38,839 nucleotides of DNA, taken from contig JALSJH010000116.1 in assembly GCA_026989455.1 (NCBI GenBank), forward strand, positions 1 to 38,839, in the 5' to 3' direction. The notes beneath the pieces are model-generated. The model worked only from the letters and a program-made list of their open reading frames with translations. It ran no database searches and was not told the origin of the DNA. This document shows positions 12,343-38,227 of this stretch, in pieces. Position numbers and translations under genes: made by a program. Source of the DNA: Chromatiales bacterium. Its GTDB lineage: Bacteria; Pseudomonadota; Gammaproteobacteria; RBG-16-57-12. The first letter of the stretch is position 1, and every line of letters begins with the position of its first letter.

Positions 12343-15300
12343 CTAAGGGGTAACCGCCAGCGCATCAGCTACACTCTCCAGCAACTCCACACTATTGAGT
12401 GGCTTTTTGAGTACACGAAGTACACCAATACGATCCACCACTTCTGGCGTTAAAATATCGGAATAACCAGTGCAAAGAATAACGGGAAGATTTGGATCGT
12501 ACGAATGAATAGATTCAGCCAGTTCAATACCCGTCATTTCAGGCATGGTCACATCGCTGATCACAAGCTGATAGTAGCCCGGTTGTTTTTTGAGCTGTTC
12601 GAACGCTTGCCGTGGTAACGGTTGATAATCACACTCATACCCATACAGGCGCAGTATCTCTTGTAAAAACTCACCCACCGAGGGTTCATCATCAACAACC
12701 AGTATCTTGCCAACACAAGCCTCTTCAGCGCCCAGTTCAATCGCATCACCCTCCCCTTTAGCATGGAGTGCGGTGGGTGGAAAATAGATGGAGACGGTGG
12801 TTCCCTCGCCGGGTGATGAGCTGACACCCACATGACCACCCGCACTGTGTACCACCCCGTGCACCACTGAGAGTCCCATTCCGGTGCCTTTGCCCATCTC
12901 TTTGGTGGTAAAGAAAGGGTCAAACATGCGCACCAGATTCTCTTGATCAATACCACAACCACTATCCGTTATCCTTAACTCCACATAGTCGCCCGCAAAG
13001 TTCTCATGGCAAGAGGCACAATAGCTTTCTTGGCAGTGGTGACTCTGGATCACGATATGCAGCTCGCCCTTCCCCTCCATGGCATCCCGCGCATTAATGC
13101 AAAGATTCATAACAATCTGCTGAAGATTGATGGTATCAACCATCACCGCCGGAACCCCCTCTTCAACCTCAGTGGTGATCGCAATGGAGGCGGGCATCAC
13201 TGAACGTAGCATTTTTAAAACATCGGTCAGTAGTGGTTCGAGTAAAATAGGCTCCGGTTTCGAATCATCGATACCTCGACTGAAAGCCAGCATTTTTGCA
13301 ATCAGGTCTCGCCCTCGTTCACCCGCTTTAAAGATCTCTTCAACATAGCGCACCAGCTTTTCGTTCGGAGAGTGTGACAAAATGCGTAGCGCCAACTCGG
13401 AGTAGCCAAGAATGCTTGCCAGCATGTTATTGAAATCATGAGCAACACCCCCTGTCAGCTGCCCAATGGCATCCATCTTTTGTGCCTGTTGCAGTTGATT
13501 TTGCAGCAGCTTTTTTTCTGACTCAGAGCGAATCTGCTCGCTGATATCACGAAAAGTAACCACCGCCCCAAATGTGGAGCCACCACTCCGCAGAGGCATT
13601 ACGCTGAATTCTACCGGGAAGTGAGCACCCTCTTTATGCCACAAAATATCATGCTGATTGCGCTGAACCCCGCCTTTCACTAACGCCTGATTGAAGGGGC
13701 ACTCACTGATCGGGTACTCACTGCCATTGGCATAACTGTGATGAATCAGTGGGTGCACAGCTTTGCCAACGATCTCATCTGGCGCATAGCCGAGCATCTT
13801 TGAAGCCGATGAGTTTACAAAAGTGGCATTACCCGCATTATCCAGACCAAAAATCCCTTCGGCGGCCGATTCAAGAATCATTCTCATCTGGTTTTCTGCT
13901 TGTTTTAACTGCTCTTCGCTCTCTTTACTCTGGGTAATATCCTGAAAAGTACCTCGTACTTTGCTCGGTACAGCCCCCTGTTCAGTATCGGCTATTATCT
14001 CTGCGTGAACCCACCGCACTGCACCATCTGCTCGAATAATGCGAAAATCATAACCCAACGTTCCACCATCTCGACGGATCTGCTGATCATACTGGTAAAC
14101 GTTGTCACGATCCTCCGGATGAACCACATCCAGAAAACCATCGTACTGAGGTATAAACCAGAGACTATCCTTGCCAAGAATTCGGTAGACCTGCTCCGAC
14201 CAATAAACCACATCTTTCGCCAGATCATGTGACCAGTTACCAATCTGGCCAATCGCTTGCGCCTCTTTCAAGCTATCTTCACTTTCACGCAAGCTGATTA
14301 AACTATCAAAACTTGTTATGTAGTCTGCCAGCCGTTTTGCAATATTCTCTACAATCAGACGATCCTGTTGTGTGGGGGGTGGCTGCTCTTTTCCATAACA
14401 GAGACACAACAACCACGGCTTGGATTTTTTGGGGAAAATGGCAATCGTTAAGATCGCATTCAGCTGGTATTGCTTGGCAATCGAATGAGGCAGTGCTTCA
14501 GCCTGGTCGTCACAAAAAAGGGTCGGAGTGGTACAACTTAATGATTTGTCCATCAGTTGTCGGGTTGTCTCATCAACTGGAAACGTTGTCTCAATTGCAC
14601 CACCATCCTGTTGATCATCAATCAACATGGGAACAAATGACTGCTGTTGTTCCGCTTCACAGGGGTAGATAATCCATGCATTTTGACACTCAAAGGTAGA
14701 TAACAGCTCTTGTAGAACATTTCTCAAGAGGTCATCGACCGAGACCGCCTGAATCCCCACCTCATTCATACGCTCCATAACATTCAAATAGCGGAGATAG
14801 TCCTGAACCGCATATTCGGCTAAACGGCGCTCGGTCATATCAGAAAAAGTGATGAACAGCCGCTCAGGCTTTCCCGTTTGCTCTCCAGCTTGAGCCACGA
14901 CATTCATTGAGATCCACCGCTCCTGGTGACCTTCATGAGTTCTCACACCCAACACCCGTTCATGCAGTGATTTGCCACTCCTCATGGTCACATTGGGTGG
15001 GAACTCTTCTAGGCTAATGGGCTGCTGCTGCTCATCAATCAGCTCAATCTCTCCACACCCCAGCTTCTCGACTAACCCTAGATAACTCATCCCCAAGATC
15101 TTCTCAACCGCTTGATTGGTGATCACCGGCACACCCTGCTCATCAACCACCACCACGCCGTGGTTCATAGACTCAAACAGCAGTCGGAAGCGCTCTTCAC
15201 TCTCAGTCAGCGCCTGAACCACTGTCTTATGCTCGGTAATGTCTTCAAGCACCATGACATAAAACTGCGGATCCCCTTCCCCCCCCTTAACCAGTCGTCC

Positions 15301-16359
15301 ACTGAGCATAAACCAACGCAGTGCACCCGATGAGTGTATTAGCCGGCACTCAAAGCGAGGAAATTCACCATTATCATATTGGATGAGAGCTCGGTTAAAG
15401 GCCTCAATATCATCCTCATAAATAAATTGGTCCATCAATTTACCTAAACCACTCGCCACTGAGTAACCCAGATACTCACTCCAGGCGGGGGAGAGAAAGG
15501 TAAACTGGTGATAGCGATCCATGGTGCAGATAACATTGCTGGCATTTTCAATAATGGTGCGCAACTTCTCTTCACTATTGCGCAGCAACGCCTCTTTCAT
15601 CTGCCATTCGGTATTATTGCGCAGGAAAAACAGGTAGTAGCGACTCGCCCCTTGTTGATAATGAGAGAGAGAAAGCTCCACTGAAAACTCTCTTCCGGAT
15701 GATGTCACCATGGCGACATTCCGCACATCAACAATGCCATCGATACTCTGATGGTTGCTTTCATACTTGACTAGTATGTTATGACAATCCGGCAAAAGTA
15801 GATCAAAATGTGCGTTGATTAATTCATGCGCTGCAAAACCTGACAGGGTAAGAAGAGAAGTGTTACACGCCTCGATATCGCCCTCGCCGTTAACCACCAA
15901 AATACCGTCGGGCGTGTTATCAAAAAACGCTTGGAGTGTTTGCGGGCTTTCACTGAGACCCAGAAGAGGCGGAAGTGAGGTGAGTTCCTCAAGTTTTAAG
16001 TGTGCTTTTATGCGTGCTGAAAGTGTCTTTTCTCTAACAGGCCGAACCACGTAATCCGCAGCGCCGACTTCAAACAGGCGATCAATTTTATCCCCACCAC
16101 TGGCTGCAAGAACAAAAATAACCGGTATTTCGCATGTGAGACTATTGGATTTTATTTTTTGGCAAAGCTCAAAGCCATCCAGCTGCGGCATCTCTGCATC
16201 AAGCAACAGAAGCTCAATTTCCCCATCACTTAATATCTCCAATGCGTGCTGGCTGTCACACGCCACTAAAACAGCCAACTCACCGGCCAATCCGCCTAAT
16301 AGAGCACCCACTTCAGCTTGTGTATTGGCAACCACCAAAATAGTACACTGTCTACTCAT
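12343..16359 (-). CDS. Hybrid histidine kinase: REC, multiple PAS, GAF, HisKA, HATPase, REC
   Basis: The 1338-residue protein has no membrane segment, so it is probably cytosolic. In order: an N-terminal receiver (1-120) with LLLLDAEMPQLDG (Asp54) but without the usual acidic pair (VVANTQ) and with Arg for the conserved Lys (VVRPV). About three PAS/PAC units follow (135-500; WSEYLGYS, WFMLSGRLV), then a GAF-like region (520-690) and two more PAS units (700-945). HisKA has LTGGVAHDFNNMLASILGYS (His974), HATPase has NLCINARDAM and GKGTGMGLSVVHG, and the C-terminal receiver has LVISDVTMPEMTG (Asp1269) and LKKPL. The GGVAHDFNN box is the NtrB-like type. A single-domain regulator lies 42 nt upstream in the same direction and probably acts with it. 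The signal is unknown; several PAS domains could bind haem, flavin or small ligands. Confidence 0.93.
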   Translation of the reverse strand: MSRQCTILVVANTQAEVGALLGGLAGELAVLVACDSQHALEILSDGEIELLLLDAEMPQLDGFELCQKIKSNSLTCEIPVIFVLAASGGDKIDRLFEVGAADYVVRPVREKTLSARIKAHLKLEELTSLPPLLGLSESPQTLQAFFDNTPDGILVVNGEGDIEACNTSLLTLSGFAAHELINAHFDLLLPDCHNILVKYESNHQSIDGIVDVRNVAMVTSSGREFSVELSLSHYQQGASRYYLFFLRNNTEWQMKEALLRNSEEKLRTIIENASNVICTMDRYHQFTFLSPAWSEYLGYSVASGLGKLMDQFIYEDDIEAFNRALIQYDNGEFPRFECRLIHSSGALRWFMLSGRLVKGGEGDPQFYVMVLEDITEHKTVVQALTESEERFRLLFESMNHGVVVVDEQGVPVITNQAVEKILGMSYLGLVEKLGCGEIELIDEQQQPISLEEFPPNVTMRSGKSLHERVLGVRTHEGHQERWISMNVVAQAGEQTGKPERLFITFSDMTERRLAEYAVQDYLRYLNVMERMNEVGIQAVSVDDLLRNVLQELLSTFECQNAWIIYPCEAEQQQSFVPMLIDDQQDGGAIETTFPVDETTRQLMDKSLSCTTPTLFCDDQAEALPHSIAKQYQLNAILTIAIFPKKSKPWLLCLCYGKEQPPPTQQDRLIVENIAKRLADYITSFDSLISLRESEDSLKEAQAIGQIGNWSHDLAKDVVYWSEQVYRILGKDSLWFIPQYDGFLDVVHPEDRDNVYQYDQQIRRDGGTLGYDFRIIRADGAVRWVHAEIIADTEQGAVPSKVRGTFQDITQSKESEEQLKQAENQMRMILESAAEGIFGLDNAGNATFVNSSASKMLGYAPDEIVGKAVHPLIHHSYANGSEYPISECPFNQALVKGGVQRNQHDILWHKEGAHFPVEFSVMPLRSGGSTFGAVVTFRDISEQIRSESEKKLLQNQLQQAQKMDAIGQLTGGVAHDFNNMLASILGYSELALRILSHSPNEKLVRYVEEIFKAGERGRDLIAKMLAFSRGIDDSKPEPILLEPLLTDVLKMLRSVMPASIAITTEVEEGVPAVMVDTINLQQIVMNLCINARDAMEGKGELHIVIQSHHCQESYCASCHENFAGDYVELRITDSGCGIDQENLVRMFDPFFTTKEMGKGTGMGLSVVHGVVHSAGGHVGVSSSPGEGTTVSIYFPPTALHAKGEGDAIELGAEEACVGKILVVDDEPSVGEFLQEILRLYGYECDYQPLPRQAFEQLKKQPGYYQLVISDVTMPEMTGIELAESIHSYDPNLPVILCTGYSDILTPEVVDRIGVLRVLKKPLNSVELLESVADALAVTP

Positions 16360-20189: not shown

Positions 20190-22079
20190 ATGGCGAATAA
20201 TAATACGGAAAACTCCAACAGCACCTCAACAGATGAAAACGAAGCCAGTACCTCGCTGCTGGAGCAGATCATCACACCTGAGCAACTGCGTGAACTCAGC
20301 CCCCGTCAGCTACCCGCATTAGCCGACGAGTTGCGTCACTTTCTGCTGGACTCCGTCAGCAAAACAGGCGGACACCTCTCATCCGGGCTGGGCGCTATCG
20401 AACTCACCATTGCCCTGCACTATGTTTTCAACACCCCCAGCGACCGTCTTGTATGGGATGTAGGCCACCAGAGCTATCCACACAAAATCCTGACTGGTCG
20501 CCGCGAACAGATGGGATCTATTCGCACACGCAACGGACTATCAGGCTTTCCAAAACGAACCGAGAGCCCTTATGATGCCTTTGGTGTTGGCCACTCCAGC
20601 ACCTCCATCAGCGCTGCACTCGGCATGGCGGTGGCTGCTCAACAGTCCAATAGTGATCGAAAATCGGTGGCTATTATCGGTGATGGTGCCATGACCGCAG
20701 GCATGGCATTTGAGGCACTGAACCACGCGGGTCACCTCGGCACCAATCTACTAGTGATTCTCAACGATAACGAGATGTCCATTTCACCCAATGTTGGCGG
20801 GCTCTCAAACTATCTTGCCAAAGTCCTTTCAGGAAAGCTTTACTCGTCAATGCGTGAGGGGGGTAAAAAGGTATTCAAAAATATGCCTGCGGTTTCCGAA
20901 CTTGCACGTCGTACCGAAGAGCATATGAAAGGGATGGTGGTACCCGGCACGCTGTTTGAAGAGTTGGGTTTCAACTATATTGGCCCAGTGGATGGGCATG
21001 ACCTGGACACCTTGGTCACCACCCTGCAAAACATAAAATCCCTCACTGGCCCCCAGTTCCTGCATATTGTCACTAAAAAAGGCAAAGGCTACAAACAGGC
21101 TGAGGATGATCCCTGTAAATTCCACGGCGTGACCCCTTTTGACCGTGAAAGTGGTGAAAAAACCGCGACCACTAGCAGCAAAAAAAGCTACACCGATGTC
21201 TTTGGCGAATGGTTATGCGATACCGCCACACAAGACCAGCGCTTGATGGCCATAACACCCGCCATGTGCGAAGGCTCCGGCATGGTAAAGTTCAGCCAAC
21301 AGTTTCCCAAGCGTTATATCGATGTGGGAATTGCCGAACAACACGCCATCACACTGGCAGCGGGGCTCGCTTGTGAGGGGCTAAAGCCGGTTGTTGCCAT
21401 CTACTCCAGCTTTCTGCAACGGGGTTATGATCAGCTGCTACACGATGTTGCCATACAGAACCTACCGGTACTGTTTGCAGTCGATCGTGCCGGAATTGTT
21501 GGCCCCGACGGCCCCACTCACGCCGGTTGTTATGACATAAGCTTTCTGCGCTGCGTACCCAATCTGACCATCATGACCCCAGCCGACGAACAAGAGTGCC
21601 GGGCGCTGCTGAGCACCGGCTATCAAATGGAGACACCCGCCGTGGTTCGCTACCCCCGAGGTGGCGGCCCGGGCATTGAAACAGCTGAAAACCTAACACC
21701 ACTCCCCCTCGGTAAGGGTGAAATTCGTCGCCAAGGGAAACAGATCGCCATCCTTAACTTCGGCCCACTATTGCAAGAGGCGCTCAATGCCGCCGAGCAG
21801 CTCGATGCCACAGTCGCCAATATGCGCTTCGTAAAACCGCTGGATGACGCACTGCTGCATCAACTTACCGAGCAACACGAAACGCTGATCACACTTGAAG
21901 ATAACGCAACCATTGGCGGCGCGGGCAGTGGTGTTAACGAGTGGCTAGCTGCGCAAAATATTCTGCGCCGGGTGATCAACCTAGGGCTGCCCGACCACTA
22001 TATCGAACACGGCACCCGGGAAGAGCTACTCAGCAGTTGCGGACTTGATGCTCAAGGCATTATCAACGCACTACAGTGA
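20190..22079 (+). CDS. dxs: 1-deoxy-D-xylulose-5-phosphate synthase
   Basis: The 629-residue thiamine-diphosphate enzyme catalyses the first step of the MEP isoprenoid pathway (pyruvate plus glyceraldehyde-3-P). Visible motifs are [33 protein letters not shown], the ThDP-binding [18 protein letters not shown] with [13 protein letters not shown], and [15 protein letters not shown] in the pyrimidine domain. The transketolase C domain follows from about residue 500. The first 20 residues ([16 protein letters not shown]) are a polar low-complexity extension before the usual start. It ends the xseB-ispA-dxs operon. Its cofactor links it to thiC downstream, though thiC is on the other strand. Confidence 0.97.
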
Positions 22080-22112
22080 GACAAAAGCCAGCATTGAGGT
22101 TTCTTTCGGCAT

Positions 22113-22144
22113 AAAAAAACGCGCCTCCCTAAAAGGGAAGCGCG
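22113..22144 (-). terminator. Rho-independent terminator of the 35-residue ORF unit
   Basis: Arms CGCGC-C-TCCCT and AGGGA-A-GCGCG enclose a short A loop. The minus-strand side ends in T7, the plus side does not. It therefore serves minus-strand transcription ending 15 nt after the stop of the small ORF at 22159, though it may also slow dxs transcripts. Confidence 0.75.
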
Positions 22145-22158
22145 CTTAAAAGTGTTCT

Positions 22159-22266
22159 CTAACCAGTAAATACGTGATAGTAAGCAACACCAACAACCCA
22201 CAGACCGAAGGCTGTAAAACCAATAGTTAATACCATACTTATTTTTGGAATAATTGCATCGACCAT
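22159..22266 (-). CDS. Predicted 35-residue single-pass membrane protein
   Basis: I do not recognise this protein. ATG 22266 is preceded on the minus strand by AGGAGAGGAAGTT, a very strong Shine-Dalgarno. The product has a short N-terminus (MVDAIIPKIS), one hydrophobic helix from about residue 9 to 28 (MVLTIGFTAFGLWVVGVAYY) and a tail HVFTG. A TAG stop is followed 15 nt later by a terminator oriented for this strand. Together these form a compact transcription unit between dxs and thiC. Size and composition resemble small subunits or regulators of membrane complexes (CydX, AcrZ and similar), but there is no sequence match I can name. It is too short to appear in standard gene calls. Confidence 0.7.
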   Translation of the reverse strand: MVDAIIPKISMVLTIGFTAFGLWVVGVAYYHVFTG

Positions 22267-22602
22267 AACTTCCTCTCCTGTAAACTATTTTTATGTGACA
22301 AAACCCAGCAATCTATCTATCAAAGCGATCTGGACACCACAAGAATAATATAAAAACGCCTCATAGCATAGGGTTAATCTAAGCGTGATTTCAAACGGAG
22401 TCTAGCAAATTATCAGTTTTTTTATTAATTAAGGGTAAAAACAAGATAAACACACCCATAATCACTTGATTATTAACAAATAAACCAACAGCAAAGAGAT
22501 ACCAACACGCGCCTAAAACCTAGCCCATGAGAGCAACTTATACCACCCCGCTATGCGCTTTAAAAACAGAGCTCTCCCATGCAACAGCCACCTAAAATTG
22601 TA
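22267..22602. other. AT-rich intergenic stretch, no gene seen
   Basis: This stretch lies between the start of the 35-residue ORF and the end of thiC. It should hold the promoter of the small ORF, but I could not pick a convincing -35/-10 pair. TATATT occurs on the minus strand without a good partner. No ORF, tRNA or clear repeat is visible. Confidence 0.5.
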
Positions 22603-24501
<1,899 letters not shown>

Positions 24502-24559
24502 CTAACTATTGGATATGGGCGCAGGCAAGACTTAATTGATAGAGTATTCTCTAAAATCA

Positions 24560-24648
24560 AGCAGCTTCCCTACGCCGGGATTAACCGGATCAGGTTCAAA
24601 GGGTCTATCTCAGTACACCGATTAGGTGACACCCCTAGCCTGTCAAAC
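24560..24648 (-). ncRNA. TPP riboswitch (THI element) of thiC
   Basis: The minus strand carries the conserved core in order: AGGGGTGTC, ACTGAGATAGACCC, GAACCTGATCCGGTTAAT and CGGCGTAGGGAAGC. These are the P1/P2/P4/P5 elements of the TPP aptamer. Between it and thiC, TTGAT-TTT-AGAG and CTCT-ATCAA (24536-24560) form a hairpin without a T-run, so control may be at ribosome binding. Confidence 0.96.
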
Positions 24649-36570: not shown

Positions 36571-36720
36571 ATGACAAAGAAAATGAAAGATGTCGTGACC
36601 ATGCCCCTGGGGTATCTGATACTTTTTGTAGTGTGTACCGTGGTTCTTCCGTGGGTAATTTATCTTATGTGGAAACTGGGGCTGATTTTGATCGGGATCA
36701 TATCAAAACTGCTGGGTTAG
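36571..36720 (+). CDS. Predicted 49-residue small membrane protein
   Basis: I do not recognise this protein. ATG 36571 has AAGGAG 10 nt upstream. The product starts with a charged segment (MTKKMKDVVTMPLG), then has a hydrophobic helix (YLILFVVCTVVLPWVIYLMW, about residues 15-34), a Lys, and a second hydrophobic stretch (LGLILIGIISKLLG) to the end. It lies 99 nt after the symporter remnant in the same direction, so it may once have been its small companion subunit. The Shine-Dalgarno falls in a sequence resembling a MITE end. No terminator is clear after it. Confidence 0.6.
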   Translation: MTKKMKDVVTMPLGYLILFVVCTVVLPWVIYLMWKLGLILIGIISKLLG

Positions 36721-36952: not shown

Positions 36953-37195
36953 ATGCCCGCCCTTACCATTAAAAATATACCAGATGATCTTTACTCTCGC
37001 TTAAAAGAAGCGGCTAAAGCCCACCACAGGAGTATGAATAGTGAAATACTTTATTGTGTTGAACGTACACTTTTCCCCCATAAAATTGATATTTCTGAAC
37101 ATATTTCTATGGCTAAAAAATTAAGAGCTAAAACTGCTAGCCACCCTCTAACCGATGATGCGTTAGATGCAGCCAAGAACGAAGGCCGACCATGA
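36953..37195 (+). CDS. Ribbon-helix-helix antitoxin (FitA/VapB type)
   Basis: The product is 80 residues. The N-terminal ribbon-helix-helix domain reads LTIKNIPDDLYSRLKEAAKA, then HHRSMNSEILYCVERTL, followed by a flexible C-terminal tail for toxin binding. ATG 36953 has GGAG 9 nt upstream. An upstream in-frame start exists at 36929, but the family starts at PALTIKNIP. The gene overlaps the PIN toxin by 4 nt (ATGA), the usual arrangement, and should repress its own operon. Confidence 0.9.
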   Translation: MPALTIKNIPDDLYSRLKEAAKAHHRSMNSEILYCVERTLFPHKIDISEHISMAKKLRAKTASHPLTDDALDAAKNEGRP

Positions 37196-37593
37196 TTGTC
37201 GTTGATACCAACATCATCTCTTATTTCTACATTTCTGGGGAGCGCTCCAACCAAGCAGAACAGCTATTAATCGCCGATCCTCATTGGAATGCACCCACCC
37301 TATGGCGTAGCGAATTCAGAAATGTTTTGAGTCAGTATTTGCGAAAAGAAATTCTGACTTTTGATGAAATCCTGCTCATCATTCAACAAGCCGAAAAACT
37401 GTTAACAGATAATGAATTCGAAATTCCTTCAGCTCAGATCATGCAGCTTGTAAACTCGAGTAATTGCTCTGCTTATGATTGTGAATTTGTTGCTCTGGCT
37501 CAATATTTAAATGTACCTTTAATCACCGCAGATAAAAAAATTCTTAGAGAATTCCCTAATATCGCCAAATCTCTCGATGCGTATTTCGCCTAG
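37192..37593 (+). CDS. PIN-domain toxin (VapC/FitB type)
   Basis: The 133-residue PIN ribonuclease has four acidic site residues: Asp5 (VVDTNIIS), Glu41 (WRSEFRNVL), Asp96 (SAYDCEFVALA) and Asp114 (TADKKIL). VapC toxins cleave tRNA or rRNA and are neutralised by the cognate antitoxin. The start overlaps the antitoxin stop by 4 nt. The module is intact and bracketed by 54-bp direct repeats, the second starting 3 nt after this gene, so it may have moved as a unit. The RNA target cannot be inferred. Confidence 0.92.
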   Translation: MIVVDTNIISYFYISGERSNQAEQLLIADPHWNAPTLWRSEFRNVLSQYLRKEILTFDEILLIIQQAEKLLTDNEFEIPSAQIMQLVNSSNCSAYDCEFVALAQYLNVPLITADKKILREFPNIAKSLDAYFA

Positions 37594-37726: not shown

Positions 37727-37812
37727 CTAAGTGAAACGCCCTGTGCGGAGCCGCACGCAGGGTGTTGGGGGGACTGAGGGCTAGAGACCCTTGGCTACCC
37801 GATTAGCTGCCT
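37727..37812 (+). mobile_element. Probable 3' remnant of a group II intron
   Basis: A hairpin CCCTGTGCGG/CCGCACGCAGGG is followed by G-rich sequence, GGGCTAGAGACCC and TTGGCTACCCGATTAG. I recall near-identical sequence downstream of bacterial group II intron reverse transcriptases. No reverse transcriptase lies in the window, so this would be a remnant. A shorter relative of its last bases (ACCCTTGGCTACTCGATCAG) follows direct repeat copy 1 at 36858. Confidence 0.4.
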
Positions 37813-38227
37813 AATTCTCGTACGGATGGATAAGATTTACTTGAGGGAAATAGGTTTTATACTTTGCCATATCCCTAGTAACCAGCCAAAATTGCGATAC
37901 CGACGCATGAGCACCAATAAAAAAATCCGGCAAGGGTGATGTTTTCGTACCCTTGTTTTTTCTGTATTTAAAATACGCTTTGCCAGTTAAAAACAGAGCC
38001 TCTCTCGGCAATTCCAGCACTTTAATACCCAAGGCATCAATAGCACTTTCAACTTCTTCAACTCTATCGAAGCCGATGGATACTTCCGTATATACGATTG
38101 AATTGATATACAGAGTATTTGTCTGGCTATATTTTTCTAGCGTGACCTCTGACCAGTCAGCCCAATTTTCATCATCAGTGAAAAGGTCCAGCAACACGCA
38201 AGAATCAACTAAAATACCATTCATCAT
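37811..38227 (-). CDS. PIN-domain toxin (VapC type), partner of AbrB-like antitoxin
   Basis: The product is 138 residues with PIN motifs Asp8 (ILVDSCVLLD), Glu48 (VYTEVSIGF), Asp101 (SPLPDFFIGAHA) and Asp119 (LVTRDMAKY). The sequence differs clearly from the other PIN toxin at 37192, so the two modules are not recent duplicates. The start codons ATG 38227 and 38224 overlap the TGA of the antitoxin, implying coupling. It probably acts as a site-specific RNase held inactive by the antitoxin. Confidence 0.9.
   Translation of the reverse strand: MMNGILVDSCVLLDLFTDDENWADWSEVTLEKYSQTNTLYINSIVYTEVSIGFDRVEEVESAIDALGIKVLELPREALFLTGKAYFKYRKNKGTKTSPLPDFFIGAHASVSQFWLVTRDMAKYKTYFPQVNLIHPYEN

Follow-up and report, generated by a model that had tools for sequence, protein, structure and literature searches.

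A conserved 35-codon gene with its own expression signals, predicted to encode a single-helix membrane protein in a Chromatiales bacterium

In a Chromatiales bacterium, the gap between dxs (20190-22079, plus strand) and thiC (22603-24501, minus strand), two genes named here from their Pfam and NCBIfam matches, holds a 35-codon ATG open reading frame on the minus strand (22266-22159), and the question is whether so short a frame is a gene and, if it is, what its product might do. The window, to which all coordinates refer, is the whole stretch of 38,839 nucleotides that was analysed. A preliminary description had seen in this gap a strong Shine-Dalgarno sequence, an ATG frame with one membrane helix, a stop, and a strand-specific terminator 15 nt after it, and each of these parts could be confirmed. 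The Shine-Dalgarno is AGGAGAGGAA, and the frame runs from the ATG at 22266-22264 to a TAG at 22161-22159 (minus strand) and specifies the product MVDAIIPKISMVLTIGFTAFGLWVVGVAYYHVFTG, which has a mean Kyte-Doolittle hydropathy of 2.02 over its best 19 residues and is predicted by AlphaFold2, from a three-sequence alignment, to form one helix over residues 2-34 with a mean pLDDT of 92.5. The terminator stem (22147-22117, with seven T) starts 11 nt past the stop codon, and its GC core lies about 15 nt past it. Not included in that description is a promoter-like block at 22405-22370, and with this block the unit reads as follows.

22370..22405, minus strand: promoter-like block, conserved; TAGACT (22404-22399), a 17-nt spacer and TAGATT (22381-22376)
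22267..22369, minus strand: predicted 5' leader, its length counted from the predicted start
22270..22279, minus strand: Shine-Dalgarno, seen in the sequence; 11/13 to 12/14 of the surrounding bases kept in pairwise comparisons
22159..22266, minus strand: open reading frame of 35 codons plus TAG for a single-helix membrane protein, on the basis of sequence, conservation, dN/dS, hydropathy and AlphaFold2
22114..22147, minus strand: rho-independent terminator with T-run, from the terminator scan; hairpin kept at all three orthologous loci

Two terminator-like sites were found in 21900-22700 (shuffle mean 0.7), and they are overlapping versions of one, both on the minus strand. When the whole window was scanned for ATG frames of 20-60 aa with a 5-nt Shine-Dalgarno core, four passed, three of them hydrophobic, and the frame at 22266-22159 was the only one of the four to have a terminator as well, in a scan that was run without a shuffle control. 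The small gene is present in one copy in the genome of the window, which is 99% complete. As thiC is encoded on the same strand and precedes the unit, read-through from thiC into the small gene is possible in this genome. Two further features of the neighborhood are a stretch past the terminator T-run (22095-22113, minus strand), where ATGCC and most of AAAGAAA are common to all three loci outside the hairpin, and an ordinary TPP riboswitch 5' of thiC (24550-24646, minus strand; 68.8 bits, Rfam).

Whether the frame is more than chance was judged mainly from its relatives, and we compared the window's genome (G000) with the other two genomes of the genus (G001 and G002) and with a fourth genome of the family that belongs to a different genus (G003). 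The gene has a full-length orthologue in both congeneric genomes, with protein identities of 86% and 71% to that of the window. The preliminary description had proposed to look in close relatives for stops, frameshifts and codon substitution bias; stops and frameshifts are absent from both orthologues, and Nei-Gojobori dN/dS is 0.33 for G000-G001, 0.15 for G000-G002 and 0.13 for G001-G002, with fewer amino-acid changes than expected. As a null, the same base changes were placed at random 20,000 times for each pair, which gave an in-frame stop 25%, 51% and 54% of the time for the three pairs. Against this null, five amino-acid differences were observed in the closest pair, G000-G001, where 7.8 were expected (P 0.045), ten in G000-G002 where 17.2 were expected (P 0.0002), and 11 in G001-G002 where 18.3 were expected (P 0.0001). 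The dxs products of the same two genomes are 93% and 88% identical to that of the window and so are more conserved than the small protein, which therefore evolves faster than a housekeeping enzyme, yet is clearly constrained. HVFTG, GFTAF, LWV and GV are invariant across the three orthologues and span the C-terminal half and the end of the protein; no significant helical periodicity was seen among the variable positions of the three sequences (R 0.35, P 0.18). This conservation, as read from sequence comparison, is the main evidence against a chance open reading frame, and we consider it almost certain that the 35 codons are a real gene kept by selection. The small protein found no match in G003, whose genome is 86% complete; either the assembly misses the gene, or any partner of the protein is dispensable or lineage-specific.

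The claim that the unit is self-contained gains from the finding that its location is not fixed. In G000 and G001 it follows dxs, with dxs and thiC as neighbors, while in G002 it lies after pnp and before a DUF454-like gene (a label that is our own reading of the sequence), and dxs is followed there by another gene. The pnp site of G000 and G001 is without the unit, as are both the dxs and the pnp sites of G003. Between G000 and G002, and hence at both sites, the promoter-like block, the Shine-Dalgarno, the reading frame (79/108 bases), the terminator hairpin and the tail TTTTTTTATGCC are kept, so it is the unit, and not its neighborhood, that is conserved. In the hairpin, one base pair is changed on both sides among the three loci. 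No repeats indicative of a mobile element were found around the unit, and a search of the four genomes gave no second full copy of the DNA unit, all matches other than the three orthologous units being 15-26 bases long. The two-site cassette shows that such a small gene can persist regardless of which genes adjoin it.

The promoter-like block is identical at 36 of 45 bases between G000 and G002, compared with 61% identity (82/135 ungapped) over the 150 bases upstream of it, and its pattern has no other match within the window. We read it as TAGACT-17-TA(A/G)ATT. Since each hexamer agrees with the consensus at just four of six positions, and since an automatic scan favored another pair (TTGAAA-18-TATGCT, 22394-22365) that is missing from G002, the exact transcription start is uncertain, and the element at 22370-22405 is best called a predicted, promoter-like sequence. 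Leader length also varies: counted from the predicted start it is about 102 nt in G000 and about 38 nt in G002, and the comparison of the two sites gives 87 against 23 nt. Further upstream, at 22466-22479, lies an FNR-like site, TTGATTATTAACAA, which departs from the consensus at one base and is common to G000 and G001 and not found in G002; such sites are not above chance in the window (four, with 1.9 expected).

How far the gene reaches beyond the genus was examined by several searches. When 369 genomes sampled from the class were searched with the protein, no genome other than the three congeneric ones passed E 0.001 (55/369 had matches at E up to 1), and the profile, run against 37 relatives, left the same three at that cut-off (15/37 at E up to 10). 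Against 398 genomes sampled from the phylum, the profile had matches in 20 at E up to 0.05, and only G000 fell below 0.001; G001 and G002 were not among the matches of this search. The next-best matches were to frames of 216 aa (0.0027, class), 196 aa (0.0137, the 37 relatives) and 87 aa (0.0039, phylum). Seven short-frame matches of the class search were inspected by eye and none looked related; other short-frame matches exist, for example one of 49 aa in G592 from the phylum profile search. Phages, plasmids and IMG/VR viral contigs gave no match, and the only match in a search of genome contigs was the metagenome-assembled genome Gammaproteobacteria bacterium isolate MC-02, which we take to be the same genome as G002. 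The earlier statement that no known family comes to mind stood up, with no Pfam or NCBIfam family matched by any of the three orthologues at E up to 10, a range in which the HMMER filters drop most weak matches; two weak PHROGs matches (0.026 and 0.052), for one orthologue of the three, were taken as chance. As far as these searches reach, the gene would appear to be restricted to the genus, a statement we hedge because a 35-residue query can miss distant relatives.

With regard to function, we favor, with somewhat better than even confidence, a monocistronic gene whose product would, by analogy, serve some inner-membrane complex as an accessory helix. Once expressed, the 35-residue protein would be inserted in the inner membrane as a single helix. 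The positive-inside rule can be used to assign its orientation: lysine is found at the N-end only (K8, or K7 and K8 in G002), and the C-terminal HVFTG is uncharged, a charge layout that suggests an N-inside, C-outside topology. Since there is no room for a catalytic site, an accessory packing role is most likely, in which the helix may pack against a larger inner-membrane complex and stabilize or tune it, as CydX, CcoM and AcrZ do. The conservation of the C-terminal part is as expected if that part contacts the presumed partner, though the periodicity is not significant. Among the neighbors, which are dxs and thiC in G000 and G001 and, in G002, pnp and the DUF454-like gene, there is no linked partner gene. 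The protein is a lineage-restricted member of a recognized kind, the single-helix small membrane proteins, and it joins, as a well-supported example, the many such proteins that may escape gene callers; knowing its partner would make it more important, since time and again the small subunits of respiratory enzymes have been noticed only late.

A hydrophobic protein of this size could also be a small type I toxin repressed by RNA, and its short length and single helix, a promoter and terminator of its own, its limited distribution and its shift of location would all be in keeping with this, as would its likeness to TimP (PMC7667032) and DinQ (PMC3567139), short hydrophobic peptides made from short transcripts. 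Unlike the genes of those toxins, however, the small gene is single-copy and shows no antisense signature nearby, in that no plus-strand terminator-like site for an antisense RNA was found in 21900-22700. The Shine-Dalgarno, moreover, is about half open in all three predicted leaders (unpaired probability 0.45, 0.54 and 0.53), which argues against strong sequestration, no relatives were found in phages or plasmids, and selection acts on the frame, all of which leaves a toxin improbable. Selection codon by codon speaks against the idea that the product is a small RNA in which the frame is incidental: the terminator and the promoter-like block are indeed well kept, but the leader is not kept between G000 and G002, and no Rfam family was reached at gathering score (best sub-threshold E 0.037), so that we hold this explanation to be very improbable.

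If the accessory helix serves a terminal oxidase, that oxidase should be of the cbb3 type, because cbb3 is the only O2-reducing terminal oxidase found when the haem-copper and bd families were searched. No cydA was found in any of the four genomes of the family by a search that was positive in ten of 14 control genomes. COX1-family matches above cut-off were found in all four genomes, and G000, G001 and G002 have two COX1-family genes each, those of G001 and G002 being typed by size and score only. NCBIfam identifies one of the two in G000 as ccoN, and behind it come ccoO (both above cut-off) and a 72-aa frame at the position of ccoQ. The other we read as resembling the large subunit of a nitric oxide reductase, because genes for a small c-type cytochrome, an ATPase and a Crp/Fnr-type regulator adjoin it (labels that are again our own reading of the sequence); no NCBIfam model reached cut-off on this gene. 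A perfect FNR-like site (0.2 expected by chance) was seen in L057, some 640 nt upstream of ccoN and within a different reading frame.

The accessory-helix reading can be narrowed to the cbb3 oxidase, of which the small protein would then be, in function analogous to CcoM, an assembly helper or a supernumerary subunit; by analogy this is conceivable, though rather unlikely. The lack of a bd oxidase in the four genomes and the presence of ccoN and ccoO in G000 speak for it, as does CcoM itself, which passages in PMC10433244 and PMC9264385 describe as a 36-residue single-helix cbb3 subunit of Pseudomonas stutzeri (chain in 5djq), late to be recognized like the small protein, whose carriers here have a cbb3 oxidase. 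The likeness does not extend to sequence: the alignment score of 26 against a shuffle mean of 25.4 (P 0.43) led us to reject homology to CcoM, the 5djq chain was not among the PDB matches of the small protein or of its profile at E up to 10, and basic residues lie at the C-end in CcoM but at the N-end in the small protein. The association with an oxidase is made here by analogy only; a COX1-family gene about the size of ccoN is present in G003, yet the small gene was not found there, and the FNR-like site upstream of the unit is at chance level and is not kept in G002. More speculative still, and of lower probability, is a helper, peculiar to the genus and evolved independently, of either the cbb3 oxidase or the nitric oxide reductase, carried in a self-contained promoter-to-terminator cassette at changing sites, which, if true, would mean that respiratory enzymes repeatedly recruit unrelated single-helix subunits from orphan genes. 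A relationship to mitochondrial COX7A can be given next to no credence. COX7A2 was the best PDB match of the window's protein (E 0.06, ungapped, residues 2-30), and the profile of the three orthologues reached E 0.18; the G001 orthologue, however, gave just 0.67, that of G002 no match, and the Pfam COX7a profile (PF02238) matched none of the three at E up to 10, and we treat the resemblance as chance because it is lost with the G002 orthologue and with that profile. A shuffle test for COX7A was strong but biased and post hoc, COX7A having been picked because it ranked first among 177,635 sequences, and was not counted.

Other small oxidase subunits were considered. CydX, CydY and CydZ of cytochrome bd oxidase are likewise small single-helix proteins (CydX has 37 aa in E. 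coli, according to PMC4325964), but the small gene is not beside an oxidase operon, and CydX identity was rejected, no bd oxidase gene having been found in the four genomes of the family. Subunit IIa of ba3 oxidase, according to a passage in PMC3128077, has 34 residues in Thermus, forms one helix and is often not annotated; its gene sits in the oxidase operon, whereas the small gene does not, and with no B-type oxidase found among the COX1-family genes and no Pfam match this identity is unlikely.

Elsewhere in the window, a second short frame (36571-36720, plus strand; 49 aa) has a Shine-Dalgarno and a strongly hydrophobic stretch, with no terminator in the scan and no Pfam match. Two PIN-domain genes (37192-37593, plus strand, and 37811-38227, minus strand) have between them an Rfam group II intron match (37734-37803, plus strand) that at 41.9 bits is just over the cut-off of 40, and a hybrid histidine kinase of 1338 aa, with several PAS domains and a receiver domain, is encoded at 12343-16359 on the minus strand.
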